Positions 16,318 through 23,150 of a stretch of DNA of 36,674 bases are shown piece by piece. The DNA lies in contig PFVX01000065.1 in the NCBI GenBank assembly GCA_002790835.1, forward strand, positions 949 to 37,622, given 5' to 3'. Source of the DNA: a bacterium CG_4_9_14_3_um_filter_65_15 (lineage in GTDB: Bacteria > Krumholzibacteriota > Krumholzibacteriia > LZORAL124-64-63). The position numbers were made by a program, and so were the translations under genes. The first letter of the stretch is position 1. Each line of letters starts with the position of its first letter. The notes beneath the pieces were generated by a model. That model saw only the letters and a program-made list of their open reading frames with translations, searched no databases and was not told where the DNA came from.

Positions 16318-17334
16318 ATGGAGTCCGGACACAGCATCCTGATCCTGGATGATGACCGCCAAGACCGGCGGATCCATGCCGGGGCCCTGCGGGGCCACGG
16401 TTACGACGTCCGGACGGCGTCCGGCTGGGATGAGGCCCGCGCCGCCATCAAGGTGCGGATCCCGGACCTGATTCTGATCCATGCGTCCCTGAGCAGGGGC
16501 GACGCCTTCGCCATGGGCGGGAAGCTCAAGGACGACACGTCCACCCGCAGCATTCCCGTGATCTTCACCATCCCGGCGCGGGATCCCGCCACCATCGACC
16601 GGGCCTTCGCCGTCGGGGCCGTGGATACCATCACCCAACCCTGTCACCTGAACGAGTTCCTGGCCAGGATCGCGACCCACATCAAGCTCCGCGGACTGGT
16701 CACCGAGGTCGAGCGCCTGCGGGAACTGGACATCGACGCCAATCCCCTGACCCACCTGCCCGGAAACAACACGATCGCCTCCACCATCCAGGAAGCGGTG
16801 ACGGCGAACCGGGACATGGCCCTGGTCTATTCCGATCTGGACAATTTCAAGACCTACAACGACGCCTACGGGTTCAACGCCGGCGACGACATCCTGCTGT
16901 TCAACGCCGAAACCCTGCAAACGGCCCTGCGCATGGTCTGCACCGGACCCTGGTTCCTGGGGCATGAGGGCGGGGACGATTTCGTGGTCCTTTTGCCGGC
17001 CGCGGACGTGGAGGCGTTCGGTGAGAAAGTCATCCGCATCTTCGATGCCGAGGCTCCGAACTTCTACAGCTCCGAAGATCGGCAGCGAGGGTACATCACG
17101 ACGAAAAGCCGGCGGGGTGATGTCCGGAAGTTCCCCCTGGTGAGCATCAGCCTGGCCGGGGTGCGCCTGCGGGACTACCCCTTCACACGTTTCGTCGAGG
17201 TGGCGGCCGTGTGTGCCGAGGTCAAGCACGCCGCCAAGGCCATCGCCGGCAGCGTGCTGTTCATGGATCGCCGGGGCGACGAAAAAACCACCGCTGCGAC
17301 ACCCGCCGCTGCGGACCTCATTTCGACCCAATAG
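16318..17334 (+). CDS. receiver domain fused to a divergent GGDEF domain
   Basis: A 338-residue protein with a receiver domain (residues 5-120: ILILDDDRQDRRI, the acceptor position replaced by the LILIHASL segment, TQPCHLNEFLARI) and a GGDEF-type domain (residues 140-300). The latter has the opening NPLTHLPGN, the metal-binding DLDNFKTYND and the signature EGGDDF. The canonical GG(D/E)EF has Glu where this has Asp. The receiver also lacks a clear Asp at the phosphorylation site (His-Ala instead). It may be a c-di-GMP binder or a weak cyclase rather than a normal phospho-activated cyclase. ATG 16318 has AGGGA 7 bases upstream. Its 3' end overlaps the convergent Mur ligase gene by 17 bases. Confidence 0.8.
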   Translation: MESGHSILILDDDRQDRRIHAGALRGHGYDVRTASGWDEARAAIKVRIPDLILIHASLSRGDAFAMGGKLKDDTSTRSIPVIFTIPARDPATIDRAFAVGAVDTITQPCHLNEFLARIATHIKLRGLVTEVERLRELDIDANPLTHLPGNNTIASTIQEAVTANRDMALVYSDLDNFKTYNDAYGFNAGDDILLFNAETLQTALRMVCTGPWFLGHEGGDDFVVLLPAADVEAFGEKVIRIFDAEAPNFYSSEDRQRGYITTKSRRGDVRKFPLVSISLAGVRLRDYPFTRFVEVAAVCAEVKHAAKAIAGSVLFMDRRGDEKTTAATPAAADLISTQ

Positions 17335-18775
17335 CCAGCAGCACCGCTTTTCCCAGTTCGGTCAGGGAGGGGTCGCGTGCGCCCATGATGAGGACCAGAT
17401 CGCCGGGCCGGGCCTCGGCGGCGATCAAAGCCGGCAGGTCTTGGCGCCGGGGAACGAAATGGGCCCGGGCGCCCTGCGTGCGGATGTCGGAGGCCAGATC
17501 GGCCGCGGAGATGTCGCGCACCACGGTTCCGCCGGCGAAATAGATCTCCGGCAGCCAAAGAATATCGTCGGGACGCAGTCCGTCGGCGAGCGCCGCGGTC
17601 AGGGGGTCGCGGAGAAACCGCGTGGGGCCGAAGCCGTGGGGCTGGAACACGGCCAGCAGGCGCCCGCTGCCGACACCTTCCAGACGCCCACGGGCTGTGG
17701 CCAGGGCGGCGGCGAGCTTGTCGGGGTTGTGGGCGAAGTCGTCGATGACCTCAACTCCCTGCGCCGAGCCCAGGGACTGGAAGCGCCGCGTCACGCCCCG
17801 GAAGTTCGCCAGGGGGGAGACCATGTCCCCCAGGGGCACGCCGACGCCGGCGCAGGCCGCGATGGCTGCCACGGCGTTCAGAACGGTGTGCAGGCCGGGC
17901 TGGGGCACCGAGAACCGGACACCCTGGAGGGTGAAGGCCACACTGCCGGCGAGGTGGACCAGGTTCTCGGCCGCAAAATCCGGTCCCTCGGCCGGGGATT
18001 CCGATATCCCGAAGGTGATCGCGCCGTCCCGCAGGGAGCGCAGGTTGTCGGTGGCGGCCACGACGACCCGTCCGCGGGTGCGGGCGGCGAAGATGGTGAA
18101 CATCTCCAGGACTTCGGTCGGCGGCTTGTGGTCCATTCCCAGATTGAGGATCACCCCGACGTGGGGCTCGTAGCGGACCAGGCTGCCGTCGCTCTCGTCG
18201 GCCTCGATCACCAGCCAGGGGGCCATGCCGTCCGGGGCCGGGCCGGCCGGATGGGCGTTGCCCAGCATATCCTTTTCCTGCAGGGCCACCAGGGGGCCGC
18301 CGGTCAGCAATCCGGGCTGCAGGCCGCAGGCGTCCAGGATGCTCCAGACCATGGCCGTCACCGTGGATTTGCCGCTGGTGCCGCTGACGGCCACGGTCCG
18401 GTGTTCCCGCACGTACGCGGCCAGCAGTTCGGACCGGTGCCAGACCGGAATCCCGCAATCCAGGGCCGTCCGGTGGTCGGGCACGTCGCTCTCCACCGCG
18501 GTGCTGGCGACCACCCCGTCGCAGGAGCGGCCCGGACACGCGGAGGGGAATCCGCCGTCCTGAGGCACGATGCGCACCCCGGCCGCTTCCAGGCAACCCC
18601 GGATGGCGTCGCGCTCTGCGCAGTCGAAGGCCCGGTCGCTGCCCGTGGCCAGCCCGCCGCCGCGCTGGGCCGCCGCGGCATGGAACTGGGCCAGGGCGCT
18701 CATGCCGCTGCCGCCGACTCCCATGAAATGCAGCCAGGCGGATCCATCGGCCCGAATCGGTTCAGATGATGACAA
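17318..18775 (-). CDS. Mur ligase family protein (MurC/Mpl-like)
   Basis: About 485 residues with the three Mur ligase domains: a UDP-sugar-binding N-terminus (LHFMGVGGSGMSAL), the ATP-binding loop VSGTSGKSTVTAM, EADESDGS, the MurC-like RFQ segment and a C-terminal domain with DDFAHNPDK and FQPHGFGPTR. MurC adds L-Ala to UDP-MurNAc, and Mpl adds a recycled tripeptide. This protein is MurC-like overall, but GTSGKS replaces GTHGKT and DDFAHNP recalls Mpl's DDFAHHP, so it may be a recycling ligase. TTG 18775 with AAGGGG 6 bases upstream is the best start; GTG 18790 and 18802 are alternatives. It overlaps the end of the YkuD gene, suggesting translational coupling. Confidence 0.75.
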   Translation of the reverse strand: MSSSEPIRADGSAWLHFMGVGGSGMSALAQFHAAAAQRGGGLATGSDRAFDCAERDAIRGCLEAAGVRIVPQDGGFPSACPGRSCDGVVASTAVESDVPDHRTALDCGIPVWHRSELLAAYVREHRTVAVSGTSGKSTVTAMVWSILDACGLQPGLLTGGPLVALQEKDMLGNAHPAGPAPDGMAPWLVIEADESDGSLVRYEPHVGVILNLGMDHKPPTEVLEMFTIFAARTRGRVVVAATDNLRSLRDGAITFGISESPAEGPDFAAENLVHLAGSVAFTLQGVRFSVPQPGLHTVLNAVAAIAACAGVGVPLGDMVSPLANFRGVTRRFQSLGSAQGVEVIDDFAHNPDKLAAALATARGRLEGVGSGRLLAVFQPHGFGPTRFLRDPLTAALADGLRPDDILWLPEIYFAGGTVVRDISAADLASDIRTQGARAHFVPRRQDLPALIAAEARPGDLVLIMGARDPSLTELGKAVLLAIGSK

Positions 18776-19334
18776 CGGGATCCCCTTCACACACGAGGTC
18801 ACAGACGGCGACGATATCCCGGTTGCCCAGGCGGATGCACCCGTGGGAGACGGGCCTGCCCAGCTGGTCTTCCCGGTTGGTGCCGTGCAGGTAGATGTAC
18901 CGCTTCATGCTGTCGAGGCCGGGGCCCCGATTGACCCCCTCTTCGCAGCCGTCGAGGGTCAGGATGCGGGTCAGGATCAGATCCCGATCCGGTTCGCCGG
19001 GCAACTTGTCCGGTGAGAAGATCCGTCCCGTGGGCTCGCGGCTGACGAATTCGGTCCCCAGGGCGGCTTCCCGGCCGATCCGCCGCTCGATGCGATGGAC
19101 CCCGGGCGGGGTGCCCCCGGAATCCTCGCCGGCGTTGATCCCGGCGGCGGCGGTGGAAACGGGCCAGCGGCGCTGCGGATCACCATCGAGAACGAGGACC
19201 AGGCACTGCCGGGTGACGTCCACCAGGAGCCAGCGCTGGGGAATTTTCCCCAACACGCTCTGCAGGGCCGCGACGGCCTCGGCCAGAGGTAAGTCCCCGT
19301 GAGCCGGTCCGTTTTCCCTTTCGGAGCTGGCCAT
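18762..19334 (-). CDS. YkuD (L,D-transpeptidase fold) protein without signal peptide
   Basis: A 190-residue YkuD domain protein. The active-site motif is complete: H150-G-T-N followed by S163-H164-G165-C166-I-R, where Cys is the nucleophile. The family forms 3-3 crosslinks in the periplasm. This protein has no signal peptide or membrane segment (the N-terminus is charged, MASSERENGP), so it probably acts in the cytoplasm. A cytoplasmic YkuD enzyme, ElsL of Acinetobacter, is an L,D-carboxypeptidase that trims recycled muropeptides. The overlap with a Mur ligase fits that role. ATG 19334 has AAGGAA upstream. Divergent from the acyltransferase-kinase gene. Confidence 0.85.
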   Translation of the reverse strand: MASSERENGPAHGDLPLAEAVAALQSVLGKIPQRWLLVDVTRQCLVLVLDGDPQRRWPVSTAAAGINAGEDSGGTPPGVHRIERRIGREAALGTEFVSREPTGRIFSPDKLPGEPDRDLILTRILTLDGCEEGVNRGPGLDSMKRYIYLHGTNREDQLGRPVSHGCIRLGNRDIVAVCDLVCEGDPVVII

Positions 19335-19426
19335 GATGGTTCCTTGCCAAAGGGCGGTACGGAGCCCAATTTAATGTTAAAGAATTATCGATTGCCGGCC
19401 GCTCCCTGCGGCCAGGAGGATGGTCA
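19335..19426. promoter_or_regulatory. divergent promoter region with hairpin before the ribosome site
   Basis: The 92-base spacer has an AT-rich core (19370-19390) likely to hold promoters for both directions. On the plus strand GGCCGC-TCCCT-GCGGCC (19397-19413) forms a perfect 6-bp hairpin directly before the AGGAGGA ribosome site (19414-19420) of the fusion gene, where it could influence translation. Confidence 0.35.
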
Positions 19427-21643
19427 ATGTACGATATCGAGGCATCCCTGGACAACCAGATCCTCGCCCGCATGCAGAACCGTCCCACGGTGATCTTCAC
19501 CGAAGCTGTGGATCCGCGCATCATCGAAGCGGCCTGCTATCTGCCCCGCTTTGCCCGCCCGGTCTTTCTGGCGGACGAAAACCAGGTCAAGGACATCGTC
19601 TCCCGCGAGCTGCAGCACCTCGATCCGACCCGTGTGGAGTTCACCCTGGCCGATAGCGCCTTCTGCAGCATCGAGGAACGAACCGATCTGCTGGAGGAAT
19701 TCGCCCGCAGCTGCACCGAACTTCCCCACACCTTGAACCCCACCCCGGATATGGAAACCGCCCTGGAGAGGATGCGCGATCCGGCGCGATTCGGCGTCAT
19801 GGCGGTGCGCCAGGGCCACGCCGACATGGTCGTCGGCGGAGCGACCCATGAGCCCCGGGATTTCTTCCGGCCCATGCTGCGCCTGCTGAGCAAGCAGGAA
19901 GTGGCCTGCGAGGCCGGTGTGATCATCCTGCCGGACAGCCATCCGTCCGATATCTTCCCCCACAACATCCTGGTGGTGGGCGATGTGGGAGTGAACGCCA
20001 ACATGACCCCCGAGGCCCTGGCGCACTGCGCCGTGGGCACCTGCGCGGTGGCGCGGGACCTGTTTCCCGAGGACGTGCTGCCGGTGATCAACGGCGCCAT
20101 CGTTTCCTACTCCAACAAGGGGTCGGACGAGGGGCCGAGCCCCGAGCTGGTGCGCAAGGCCTCGGCCCTGGTGCCGGAAATCCTGGCCGAGCGCGTCAAC
20201 CGCGGGGAGCGTTACAGCACCATCCACATCGAGGGCGAGGTCAAGATCAGCGTGGCGTTGTCCCGCCGTTCCGCGCACCTGTATCGGCGCGGCCAGGAAA
20301 AGGCCTTCGTGGGGGGGACCAACGTCCTGATCGTGCCCAACCTGGACACGGGAAACCTGTTGTTTCACCTGTACGGCACCCGGTATCCCGAAGCCCGCAA
20401 GTTCAGCGCCATGTTCGGCCTGCGCTTCCAGGGCGTCGACCTGCCCATGGACAGCACGGCCCAAGACGCGGCTCTGGCGGTCAAGGCCAGCATTTTGCGG
20501 CTGCACCGGTTTGGACACTGGGTGCGCACACCCAAGGACACCTTCTACCGACGCTACCGGATCCTGGCGATCAACCCGGGTTCGACCAGCACCAAGATCG
20601 CCCTGTTCGAAGGTGACTTGCCGCGGTTCACGGCGGAGATCCAGCATTCGGCCGATCAGCTCGAGCCCTATGAGGGCCGTCGCATCGTGGAGCAGTACCC
20701 CCTGCGCAAGCAGGTGATCCTGGACGAACTGGCCAAACACGGACTGGCTCCCGAGGATCTGGACGCCGTGGCCGGCCGGGGCGGTCTTCTGCAGCCCATT
20801 CCCCACGGAACCTACCGGGTGGGTGAGGAAATGGTCGATGAGCTGCTCGGGGCCGGAGGAGCCGATCACGCCTCCAATCTGGGCGCCCTGATCGCGCGGG
20901 AGCTGGTGGCCCGTACGGATCACCCGGCCTACATCGTCGACCCAGTGGTGGTTGACGAGGTGCCGCCGCGGGCCAAGGTCACCGGAATGAAGGCCCTGCG
21001 CCGCAAGGTCATCAGCCACGCCCTGAATCAGATCTCCACCGCGCGGCGCTACGCCGAGGAGCACGAGACCTTCTATCGTTACCTGAACCTCATTGTGTGC
21101 CACATGGGCGGAGGCATCACCATCGGCGCCCACGCCGCGGGCCGTTACATCGACGTGAACAACGGTCTGGACGGAGAGGGGCCGTTCAGCCCGCAGCGCT
21201 CCGGCGGCGAACCGACCGGCGACCTCATCCGGCTCTGTTTCAGCGGGCGCTTCACCCTGGAAGAGCTGCTCAAGTTGAACAAGGGCCGGGGGGGATTGAT
21301 CGATCTGCTGGGCACGGCGGATTTTCGCGAGGTGGAGCAGCGGGTCCTGGCCGAGGATCCGCAGGCCTGCGAAGTCTACGAGGCCATGGTCTACCAGATC
21401 TGCAAGAACATCACCGCCCTGCTGCCGGCCTTCAACGGTGCGGCCGTGGACCAGGTGCTGCTGACCGGGGGGCTGGCGCGCAGCGAGATGCTGGTGCGGG
21501 ACATCACCGCGGGGGTTCAGGGTCTGGGATGCGGGGTGACGGCCTATCCCGGCGAAAACGAGATGTACGCCCTGATGAAGGGCGTCCTGCGCGTGCTCAC
21601 GGGCAGGGAACCGGCGAAGGACTACAACCCGGCGGGGGAGTGA
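19427..21643 (+). CDS. phosphate acyltransferase-butyrate kinase fusion
   Basis: A 738-residue two-enzyme fusion. Residues 1-345 are a phosphate acetyl/butyryltransferase domain (FGVMAVRQGHADMVVGG, GDVGVNANMTPEAL, VLIVPNLDTGNLLFHLYG), closest in feel to the PTA-like domain of bacterial malic enzymes. Residues 377-730 are a butyrate kinase of the ASKHA fold: INPGSTSTKIALF, AGRGGLLQPIPHGTYRV, HASNLGALIARELVA, HMGGGITIGAH and DGEGPFSPQRSGG. Together they would convert acyl-CoA plus phosphate to acyl-phosphate and then to acid plus ATP. All kinase signatures look intact. AGGAGG precedes the ATG. The next gene, a separate phosphate butyryltransferase, starts 2 bases after the stop, so the transferase activity is present twice in one operon. 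Confidence 0.88.
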   Translation: MYDIEASLDNQILARMQNRPTVIFTEAVDPRIIEAACYLPRFARPVFLADENQVKDIVSRELQHLDPTRVEFTLADSAFCSIEERTDLLEEFARSCTELPHTLNPTPDMETALERMRDPARFGVMAVRQGHADMVVGGATHEPRDFFRPMLRLLSKQEVACEAGVIILPDSHPSDIFPHNILVVGDVGVNANMTPEALAHCAVGTCAVARDLFPEDVLPVINGAIVSYSNKGSDEGPSPELVRKASALVPEILAERVNRGERYSTIHIEGEVKISVALSRRSAHLYRRGQEKAFVGGTNVLIVPNLDTGNLLFHLYGTRYPEARKFSAMFGLRFQGVDLPMDSTAQDAALAVKASILRLHRFGHWVRTPKDTFYRRYRILAINPGSTSTKIALFEGDLPRFTAEIQHSADQLEPYEGRRIVEQYPLRKQVILDELAKHGLAPEDLDAVAGRGGLLQPIPHGTYRVGEEMVDELLGAGGADHASNLGALIARELVARTDHPAYIVDPVVVDEVPPRAKVTGMKALRRKVISHALNQISTARRYAEEHETFYRYLNLIVCHMGGGITIGAHAAGRYIDVNNGLDGEGPFSPQRSGGEPTGDLIRLCFSGRFTLEELLKLNKGRGGLIDLLGTADFREVEQRVLAEDPQACEVYEAMVYQICKNITALLPAFNGAAVDQVLLTGGLARSEMLVRDITAGVQGLGCGVTAYPGENEMYALMKGVLRVLTGREPAKDYNPAGE

Positions 21644-21645
21644 GC

Positions 21646-22578
21646 ATGGATCCCATCACGAATCTGGAACAACTGGTGGAGCAGCTGCGCACGGCTCCTT
21701 CGCGCCGCGTGGTCATAGCGGCCGGGCAGGATCCCCACTCCCTGGAAGCCGCCGCCCGCGCGGTGGGCGAGGGAATCGCCCGGATCACCCTGGTGGGCGA
21801 CCGACTGCGCATCGGGAAATTGTGCAGCGAGATGTCCCTGGATCCGGATTCGTTCACCATCGTCGACGAACCCGATCCCTTGCGGGCGGGCGCCCTGGCG
21901 GTGGCGCAGGTGCGCGACGGCCAGGCCGACGTCCTGATGAAGGGTCTGATCGGCACCGCCGACTACATGCGACTGATCCTCGACAAGGATCAGGGCCTGC
22001 TGCCGATCAGCCGCGTGCTGTCCCATGTGACGGTGGCCGAGTTTCCCGTCGGGAAGCTCGAACCCCGGCGGCTGCTGTTCCTCGCCGATGTTGCCATCAT
22101 TCCCCATCCGGATCGCGAATCCATGATCCAGATCACGGGTTATTGCACCGCCGCCGCCCGCAGCTTCGGCATCGAACGGCCGCGGGTCGCCCTGCTGACC
22201 GCCAGCGAAAAGGTCTCCGGGCGCATGCCCGCCACGGTGCAGGCCGACGAGATCGCGCGGATGTGTGCAGCGGATGAGCTGGCCGATCGCATCGGGCCGG
22301 CGGATGTGGCCGGTCCCATTTCGCTGGACCTGGCTCTTTCGGCCGAAGCCTGCGCCATCAAGGGCTATGGGGGACCGGTCGGGGGGCGCGCCGACGTGCT
22401 GGTGTTTCCCAACATCGAGGCGGGGAACGTCTTCTACAAGACGGCCACGCGGCTGGCCGGAGCTCGGGTTGCGGCGGTGGTGGTCGGGGCGGCGGCGCCC
22501 TGCATCCTCACGAGCCGCGCCGACAGCGAGGAATCCAAGTTCCTGTCCATCGCCATGGGTTGCCGCCTGGCCGAATAA
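21646..22578 (+). CDS. ptb: phosphate butyryltransferase
   Basis: A 310-residue phosphate acyltransferase of the Ptb subfamily: VVIAAGQDPHSLEAA, ADVLMKGLIGTADYM, VAEFPVGKLEPRRLLFLADVAIIPHPD, PRVALLTASEKVSG and ADVLVFPNIEAGNVFYKTATRLAGA. It exchanges CoA for phosphate on butyryl-CoA or branched-chain acyl-CoA, feeding the kinase domain encoded just upstream. ATG 21646 follows GGGGGAG and lies 2 bases after the previous stop, showing tight coupling. Rubrerythrin follows after 74 bases on the same strand. Substrate choice between butyryl-, isobutyryl- and isovaleryl-CoA cannot be read from the sequence. Confidence 0.93.
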   Translation: MDPITNLEQLVEQLRTAPSRRVVIAAGQDPHSLEAAARAVGEGIARITLVGDRLRIGKLCSEMSLDPDSFTIVDEPDPLRAGALAVAQVRDGQADVLMKGLIGTADYMRLILDKDQGLLPISRVLSHVTVAEFPVGKLEPRRLLFLADVAIIPHPDRESMIQITGYCTAAARSFGIERPRVALLTASEKVSGRMPATVQADEIARMCAADELADRIGPADVAGPISLDLALSAEACAIKGYGGPVGGRADVLVFPNIEAGNVFYKTATRLAGARVAAVVVGAAAPCILTSRADSEESKFLSIAMGCRLAE

Positions 22579-22652
22579 GGGGCTTGAATGTCGGAAAAAA
22601 GGCGGGTAGTCTGCCATCCGGTCCCAATGTATTTCCGACGAGGGAGAAAACC

Positions 22653-23150
22653 ATGTCCCAGACCAATGACAACCTGAAGGATGCCTTCGCCGGCGAGAGC
22701 CAGGCTTTCCAGAAGTACACGTCCTTCGCCGAAAAAGCCGAGAAGGAAGGGCTGCCCAACATCGCCCGCCTGTTCCGGACCACGGCCCAGGCCGAACGGA
22801 TCCACGCGGCCGGGCACTTCGGTGCGCTGGACGGCGTTGGCGATACCGCGGCCAACCTGAAGGACGCCATCGCCGGAGAGACCTACGAGTACACCGAAAT
22901 GTACCCGCCCATGCTGGCGGCGGCCGAAGCCGAAGGGCACAAGGCCAAGCGGATGTTCAAGTTCGCGGTGGGGGCGGAGGAGATCCACGCCCAGCTGTAC
23001 CAGCGGGCGCTGGAAGCGGCGCAAAAGGGCGAGGACCTGCAGGAGGAAAAATTCTTCCTGTGTCCGGTGTGCGGCCACATCGAATTCGGCGCGGCGCCGG
23101 AAAATTGTCCCATCTGCGGCGCCCCCGCCAGCCGGTACATCCAGGTCTAG
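22653..23150 (+). CDS. rubrerythrin
   Basis: This 165-residue protein has a four-helix di-iron domain (ligands E15, E48, H51, E79 or E76, E109/E110, H112 in the motifs AGES, AERIH, AGETYEY and AEEIH) and a C-terminal rubredoxin domain with C137-x2-C140 and C152-x2-C155. It reduces hydrogen peroxide with electrons from rubredoxin or NADH systems and is typical of anaerobes and microaerophiles. AGGGAGA precedes the ATG. It could be in the ptb operon, but the 74-base gap may hold its own promoter. No PerR-like site is visible in that gap. Confidence 0.95.
   Translation: MSQTNDNLKDAFAGESQAFQKYTSFAEKAEKEGLPNIARLFRTTAQAERIHAAGHFGALDGVGDTAANLKDAIAGETYEYTEMYPPMLAAAEAEGHKAKRMFKFAVGAEEIHAQLYQRALEAAQKGEDLQEEKFFLCPVCGHIEFGAAPENCPICGAPASRYIQV

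Follow-up and report, generated by a model that had tools for sequence, protein, structure and literature searches.

Within the window, the 36,674-nucleotide stretch of a Krumholzibacteriota genome that was analysed here, one gene encodes a phosphate acyltransferase-type domain joined to a butyrate kinase (Buk), and the next gene encodes a second, separate phosphate butyryltransferase (Ptb). This arrangement raises the question of what the fused domain does when a transferase stands next to it. The first-pass annotation offered two answers: the two transferases might use different acyl-CoAs, or the fused domain might be regulatory, as in malic enzymes.

Organization of the locus

The fusion gene (19427-21643, + strand) is an uninterrupted open reading frame of 738 amino acids. 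It is preceded by a ribosome-binding site, AGGAGG, read from the sequence at 19414-19419 (+), and similar purine-rich boxes lie upstream of most relatives of the gene. The protein consists of a PTA_PTB domain (residues 17-356; 19475-20494, +), a linker whose W..(R)TP(K/R)DTF motif is conserved (residues 357-376; 20495-20554, +), and a complete butyrate kinase domain (residues 377-735; 20555-21631, +). Pfam detects PTA_PTB at residues 17-313 (100.8 bits, cut-off 24) and Acetate_kinase at residues 545-701 (43 bits, cut-off 22). In Foldseek searches with the AlphaFold2 model of the protein (pLDDT 83.9, pTM 0.83), one half matches Buk2 and the other half the Pta and malic enzyme PTA domains. Two nucleotides separate the TGA of the fusion gene from the ATG of the separate Ptb-type gene (21646-22578, +), which encodes 310 amino acids with an intact LTSRADS motif and is assigned from domain calls and conserved adjacency. 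Thus, the first-pass description of a fused acyltransferase-kinase beside a second Ptb is borne out by the reading frames and the Pfam and NCBIfam domain calls, and its outer coordinates, 19427-22578, are exact.

A rubrerythrin-type protein is encoded directly 3' of Ptb (22644-23150, +) and fits anaerobic or microaerophilic life. On the other side lie genes for an L,D-transpeptidase-fold protein, whose nearest model is the ElsL carboxypeptidase (18762-19334, -), and, adjoining it, a MurC/Mpl-like Mur ligase that scores under both model cut-offs (17318-18802, -); these two are possibly a peptidoglycan-recycling pair. No clue to the substrate was found among the neighbours considered (the Mur ligase, the L,D-transpeptidase, the rubrerythrin and a hybrid histidine kinase).

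The kinase domain

Residues 377-735 are predicted from the sequence to form a full, working-looking butyrate kinase. The NCBIfam butyrate kinase model TIGR02707 matches residues 378-731 with 417 bits, above its equivalog cut-off of 289, and the domain aligns over its whole length with Thermotoga maritima Buk2 (1x9j/1saz; 297 bits, and 46% identity in the Foldseek alignment). The Asn, Ser, Lys, Arg, Asp, His, Arg and Glu positions common to acetate kinase are kept. In particular, N383, K390, R451, D505, H559, R591 and E712 match both AckA and Buk2 in the catalytic-residue alignment, and H481 agrees with Buk2 and is offset by one column in the AckA alignment. The fusion protein shares with Buk2 a full kinase with its catalytic residues; however, Buk2 is a single-domain protein and lacks the 376-residue N-terminal extension.

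The N-terminal domain has lost phosphotransacetylase residues

The N-terminal domain is matched better by the solved phosphotransacetylases (Ptas) 6iow, 1r5j and 1qzt than by the PTA domains of hybrid malic enzymes (MaeB), and Ptb models hardly match it; thus, it is Pta-like and not Ptb-like. It shares fold and sequence family with the Ptas of M. thermophila (1qzt) and P. gingivalis (6iow), with profile scores of 72 and 84.5 bits, respectively, and reaches 85.5 bits against the Pta equivalog model, below the cut-off of 311.2. It differs from an active Pta by replacements in the cleft, including both members of the catalytic Ser-Arg pair.

The catalytic residues of the fused transferase, which the first-pass annotation had singled out as worth checking, were examined in an alignment that combined 71 fused proteins, five Ptas and two MaeBs (M. 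thermophila Pta numbering is used below), and Ser309-Arg310, S128, Q244 and K283 were all found to be replaced. The profile alignment and the residue table place P340-M341 (20444-20449, +) at the catalytic Ser309-Arg310. Across the family, the Ser309 position holds proline or alanine in 70 of the 71 proteins and serine in one, and the Arg310 position holds methionine in 63 and arginine in three. The call that this pair is replaced is robust because the stretch from Asn279 to Ser309 is equal in length in fused domains and Ptas; for R87 and K257 the correspondence varies with the alignment used, two alignments disagreeing at K257. The Ser/Thr128 position of active Ptas is occupied by P143 (19853-19855, +), with proline in 66/71 fused proteins, and by tyrosine in the malic enzymes of E. 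coli and of the host genome itself. K273 (20243-20245, +; lysine in 70/71) stands at the Gln244 position and H314 (20366-20368, +; histidine in 71/71) at the Lys283 position. Asn279, Arg133 and Asp316 are kept in all 71 proteins and Asp307 in 66; D347 (20465-20467, +) occupies the position of Asp316, the proposed catalytic base. The cleft residues K273, H314 and D342 are newly fixed in the fused domains of this alignment, and the most divergent fused member (L118) keeps both R310 and Q244. Measured against an active phosphotransacetylase, the domain thus lacks the Ser309-Arg310 pair and retains the proposed base. In P. gingivalis Pta, each of the residues equivalent to Asp307, Ser309 and Arg310 is essential, and mutation of the Asp316 equivalent leaves 11% of the activity (PMC6461089).

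Despite these losses, comparison of the sequences indicates that the fused Pta-like domain is not decaying and is conserved almost as well as the kinase. Compared pairwise, the fused proteins share on average 62% identity in the Pta-like domain and 68% in the kinase domain, and the two are correlated (r = 0.93 over 2485 pairs, which are non-independent). Moreover, conservation in the pocket and cleft columns modestly exceeds that in the remainder of the domain (P = 0.02, rank test; P = 0.046, Fisher test).

Comparison with hybrid malic enzymes

The PTA domain of MaeB is an established allosteric sensor of acetyl-CoA (PMC7902834, PMC12704298). MaeB has no transferase activity, and the positions equivalent to an Asp and a Ser/Thr of active enzymes are changed (PMC7902834); judging from spacing and residue type, Y576 and V746 of MaeB probably correspond to Ser128 and Asp316, respectively. 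The fusion protein resembles the MaeBs of E. coli and Bdellovibrio in having a Pta fold that has lost transferase residues, is joined to another metabolic enzyme and forms a clade of its own. It differs in domain order, as the PTA domain is C-terminal in MaeB and here is N-terminal and joined to a butyrate kinase, and in the residues lost: the fusion keeps Asp316 and changes Ser309, Arg310 and Lys283, whereas the MaeBs of E. coli and of the host genome change Asp316 and Ser128. In a tree of PTA domains, the fused domains form one clade (support 100/100) apart from the MaeB clade (97/99), with the fused clade on a long stem that makes its deep placement unsure. Kinship with the malic enzyme PTA domains was considered and is unsupported, as the two lie in separate clades.

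Distribution and origin of the fusion

When 84,980 species genomes were scanned with short peptide patterns, 82 loci were found and 80 were kept, a number that is a lower bound. The phyla represented are Krumholzibacteriota, Acidobacteriota (many Holophagae, including the cultured Geothrix fermentans, G. rubra and G. terrae, as well as Thermoanaerobaculia) and Spirochaetota, together with metagenome-assembled genomes (MAGs) labelled Latescibacterota, Gemmatimonadota, Fibrobacterota and Deltaproteobacteria, labels that may err. The nearest named relatives are Candidatus Krumholzibacteriia MAGs, with 86% identity in the N-terminal domain. A stop between the domains, which the first-pass annotation had named as a possible objection to the fusion, did not appear: the junction is open and in frame in 79 of the 80 named loci, and the contig of the 80th stops at the junction. 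Six loci that seemed unfused were explained by alignment past a stop (three), a later frame break inside the kinase (two) and a contig end (one).

A fusion model matched 35 of 38 genomes of the source organism's own family, nearly always at full length, with a few in pieces broken by contig ends; this fusion was found in none of the other families of the Krumholzibacteriota genome sample. A sequencing slip, missed stop or assembly artefact is ruled out, since most of the family's genomes have the fusion and it also turns up across many unrelated projects, and occurrence in other phyla likewise rules out restriction to one family. In samples of two phyla, 36 of 396 Acidobacteriota genomes match (counting one whose match is a standalone relative), as do 3 of 393 Spirochaetota genomes, so the distribution is patchy.

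In a tree of kinase domains, the 36 fused kinases sampled lie on one side of a branch and eight kinases without the Pta-like domain on the other (support 94/92), and all 36 of the fused clade keep the Pta-like domain. This tree, in which the fused kinases split from the eight that lack the Pta-like domain, fits a single fusion event and later spread. Members of one Krumholzibacteria genus, a 'Deltaproteobacteria' MAG and two Treponema-labelled MAGs (L061, L099, L100 and L102) form one supported kinase clade, which suggests either transfer between phyla or mislabelled MAGs.

A different fusion is widespread across sister families within the class. Families f3, f7 and f4 of the Krumholzibacteria carry the reversed order, Buk and then a Ptb-type domain whose SR motif is intact, in proteins of approx. 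735-815 amino acids (loci L034-L037 and L174-L191 in f3 and f7; L204-L207 in f4). The f3 and f7 proteins, of approx. 810 amino acids, have a 110-residue N-terminal extension, and in f4 the fusion occurs alongside separate genes. Since these families carry the reversed form, two different kinase-transferase fusions exist in different families of the phylum. Both combine a kinase and a PTA_PTB domain on one chain, but the reversed one differs in order, in its Ptb-type domain and in its intact motif, from which it is predicted to be truly bifunctional, as it looks. No description of it was found in the literature searched, and it is apparently undescribed.

The separate Ptb and a possible substrate

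The neighbouring gene (21646-22578) is Ptb-like by best match: phosphate butyryltransferase models score highest, with 260-267 bits, which lies under their equivalog cut-offs of 399-410 (TIGR02706: 260 against 410), so that the score does not fix acyl specificity. A separate Ptb-like gene of approx. 300 amino acids, classed by its pattern of partial PTA_PTB matches, is present in 20 of 22 fusion genomes; none was found in G080 and G086, the latter a 1.6-Mb draft. In the own Krumholzibacteria family, Ptb lies directly downstream of the fusion wherever the contig allows. Among the 74 named loci with enough flank, 59 have Ptb in the locus (38 downstream on the same strand, 21 convergent). The Geothrix Ptb is convergent to the fusion gene and only approx. 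44% identical, and several named fusion loci have no adjacent Ptb. As in the Clostridium Ptb-Buk operon, a Ptb gene stands next to a kinase gene and the same two steps are available; unlike in that operon, the kinase gene comes first and its product has an extra pseudo-transferase domain.

A standalone relative of the fused domain, of approx. 395 amino acids (180 bits to the fused-domain profile), is encoded in the acidobacterial genome G113 (L213:2064-3293, -). It keeps T128, Q244, S309 and R310, adjoins VorB- and gamma/beta-type 2-oxoacid:ferredoxin oxidoreductase genes and is possibly an unrecognised branched-chain phosphotransacylase. The locus had been considered as a split fusion, and this was dropped in favour of a standalone relative. 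Since VorB lies beside this gene and a VorB above the model cut-off is also encoded in the host genome of the fusion, a branched-chain acyl-CoA is a reasonable guess for the substrate.

A proposed sensory role for the fused domain

The reading we favour, at a probability of roughly 60%, is that the fusion protein is a butyrate-type acyl kinase with a repurposed, catalytically dead Pta domain as a sensor, and that the neighbouring Ptb carries out the transfer; here, we infer each of the loss of transferase activity, the ligand, the direction of control and the substrate. The adjacent Ptb would convert an acyl-CoA (butyryl-CoA or a branched-chain one), perhaps supplied by a VorB-type 2-oxoacid:ferredoxin oxidoreductase, to the acyl phosphate, which the kinase domain would convert to the acid and ATP, or the reverse. 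In the remodelled cleft, the N-terminal domain would bind acyl-CoA, CoA or acyl phosphate, and it would switch kinase activity via the conserved linker, in the manner of the PTA domain of hybrid malic enzymes. Of the two answers initially offered, the regulatory one thus gains support, by sequence and by analogy, from the residue losses, the conservation, the Ptb in 20 of 22 genomes and the MaeB precedent, which together would make regulation plausible. That of two transferases with different acyl-CoAs is disfavoured, because the Ser-Arg pair essential in the P. gingivalis enzyme is lost, along with S128, Q244 and K283.

The chief rival, since Asp316 is kept and new cleft residues are fixed, is an active bifunctional enzyme in which a phosphotransacylase with a remodelled site and another acyl specificity feeds the kinase, and the separate Ptb serves another acyl-CoA. 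Retention of D316, D307, N279 and R133, fixation of K273, H314 and D342 in the cleft and the two genomes in which no separate Ptb was seen (G080 and G086) would all fit such an enzyme, and the R310 and Q244 kept by L118 also count against the favoured reading. We nevertheless consider an active enzyme unlikely, as nearly all members lack Ser309-Arg310, each essential in P. gingivalis Pta, most genomes (20/22) have a separate Ptb-like gene, and the pair is retained in the standalone relative.

Slightly less probable still is a structural role, in which a PTA dimer or hexamer interface organises the kinase, or docks Ptb for handover of the acyl phosphate, with no sensing. PTA folds are natural dimers and form hexamers in MaeB (PMC7902834), and Ptb adjoins the fusion in most loci; however, a pure scaffold would not need the extra conservation seen in the cleft columns, and docking fits poorly with a Geothrix Ptb that is convergent and approx. 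44% identical and with loci that have no adjacent Ptb. Loss of the catalytic residues could also mark a functionless relic of an older bifunctional enzyme, but the domain is strongly conserved across phyla, almost as well as the kinase, and every sampled kinase of the fused clade has retained it, which makes this very improbable.

Significance

To our knowledge, a dead Pta copy as a built-in metabolite sensor has so far been known only from malic enzymes. The principle of a Pta domain as regulator is thus already known from MaeB, and the Pta-Buk version is apparently undescribed. The first-pass annotation had allowed that the fusion might prove widespread and already described; it does span several phyla, yet the pattern scan of 84,980 genomes recovered it from only about 80, a lower bound, and no published description of a Pta/Ptb-Buk fusion was found in the open literature searched. 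We see about even odds that, in the fusion, the phosphotransacetylase fold has been recruited a second time, and independently, as an allosteric sensor of acyl-CoA, one that gates an ATP-forming acyl kinase in several phyla.

By model matches alone, the gene would be annotated as a plain butyrate kinase, and pathway reconstruction could miscount the dead domain as a second transferase. Direct testing is feasible, as the fusion is present in cultured Geothrix species. Should the sensory reading hold, evolution has converted the phosphotransacetylase fold to regulatory use at least twice; butyrate-type kinases, which pathway schemes usually show as unregulated final enzymes, would include a form tied to the acyl-CoA state of the cell, and substrate-level phosphorylation in these bacteria would respond to the acyl-CoA pool.
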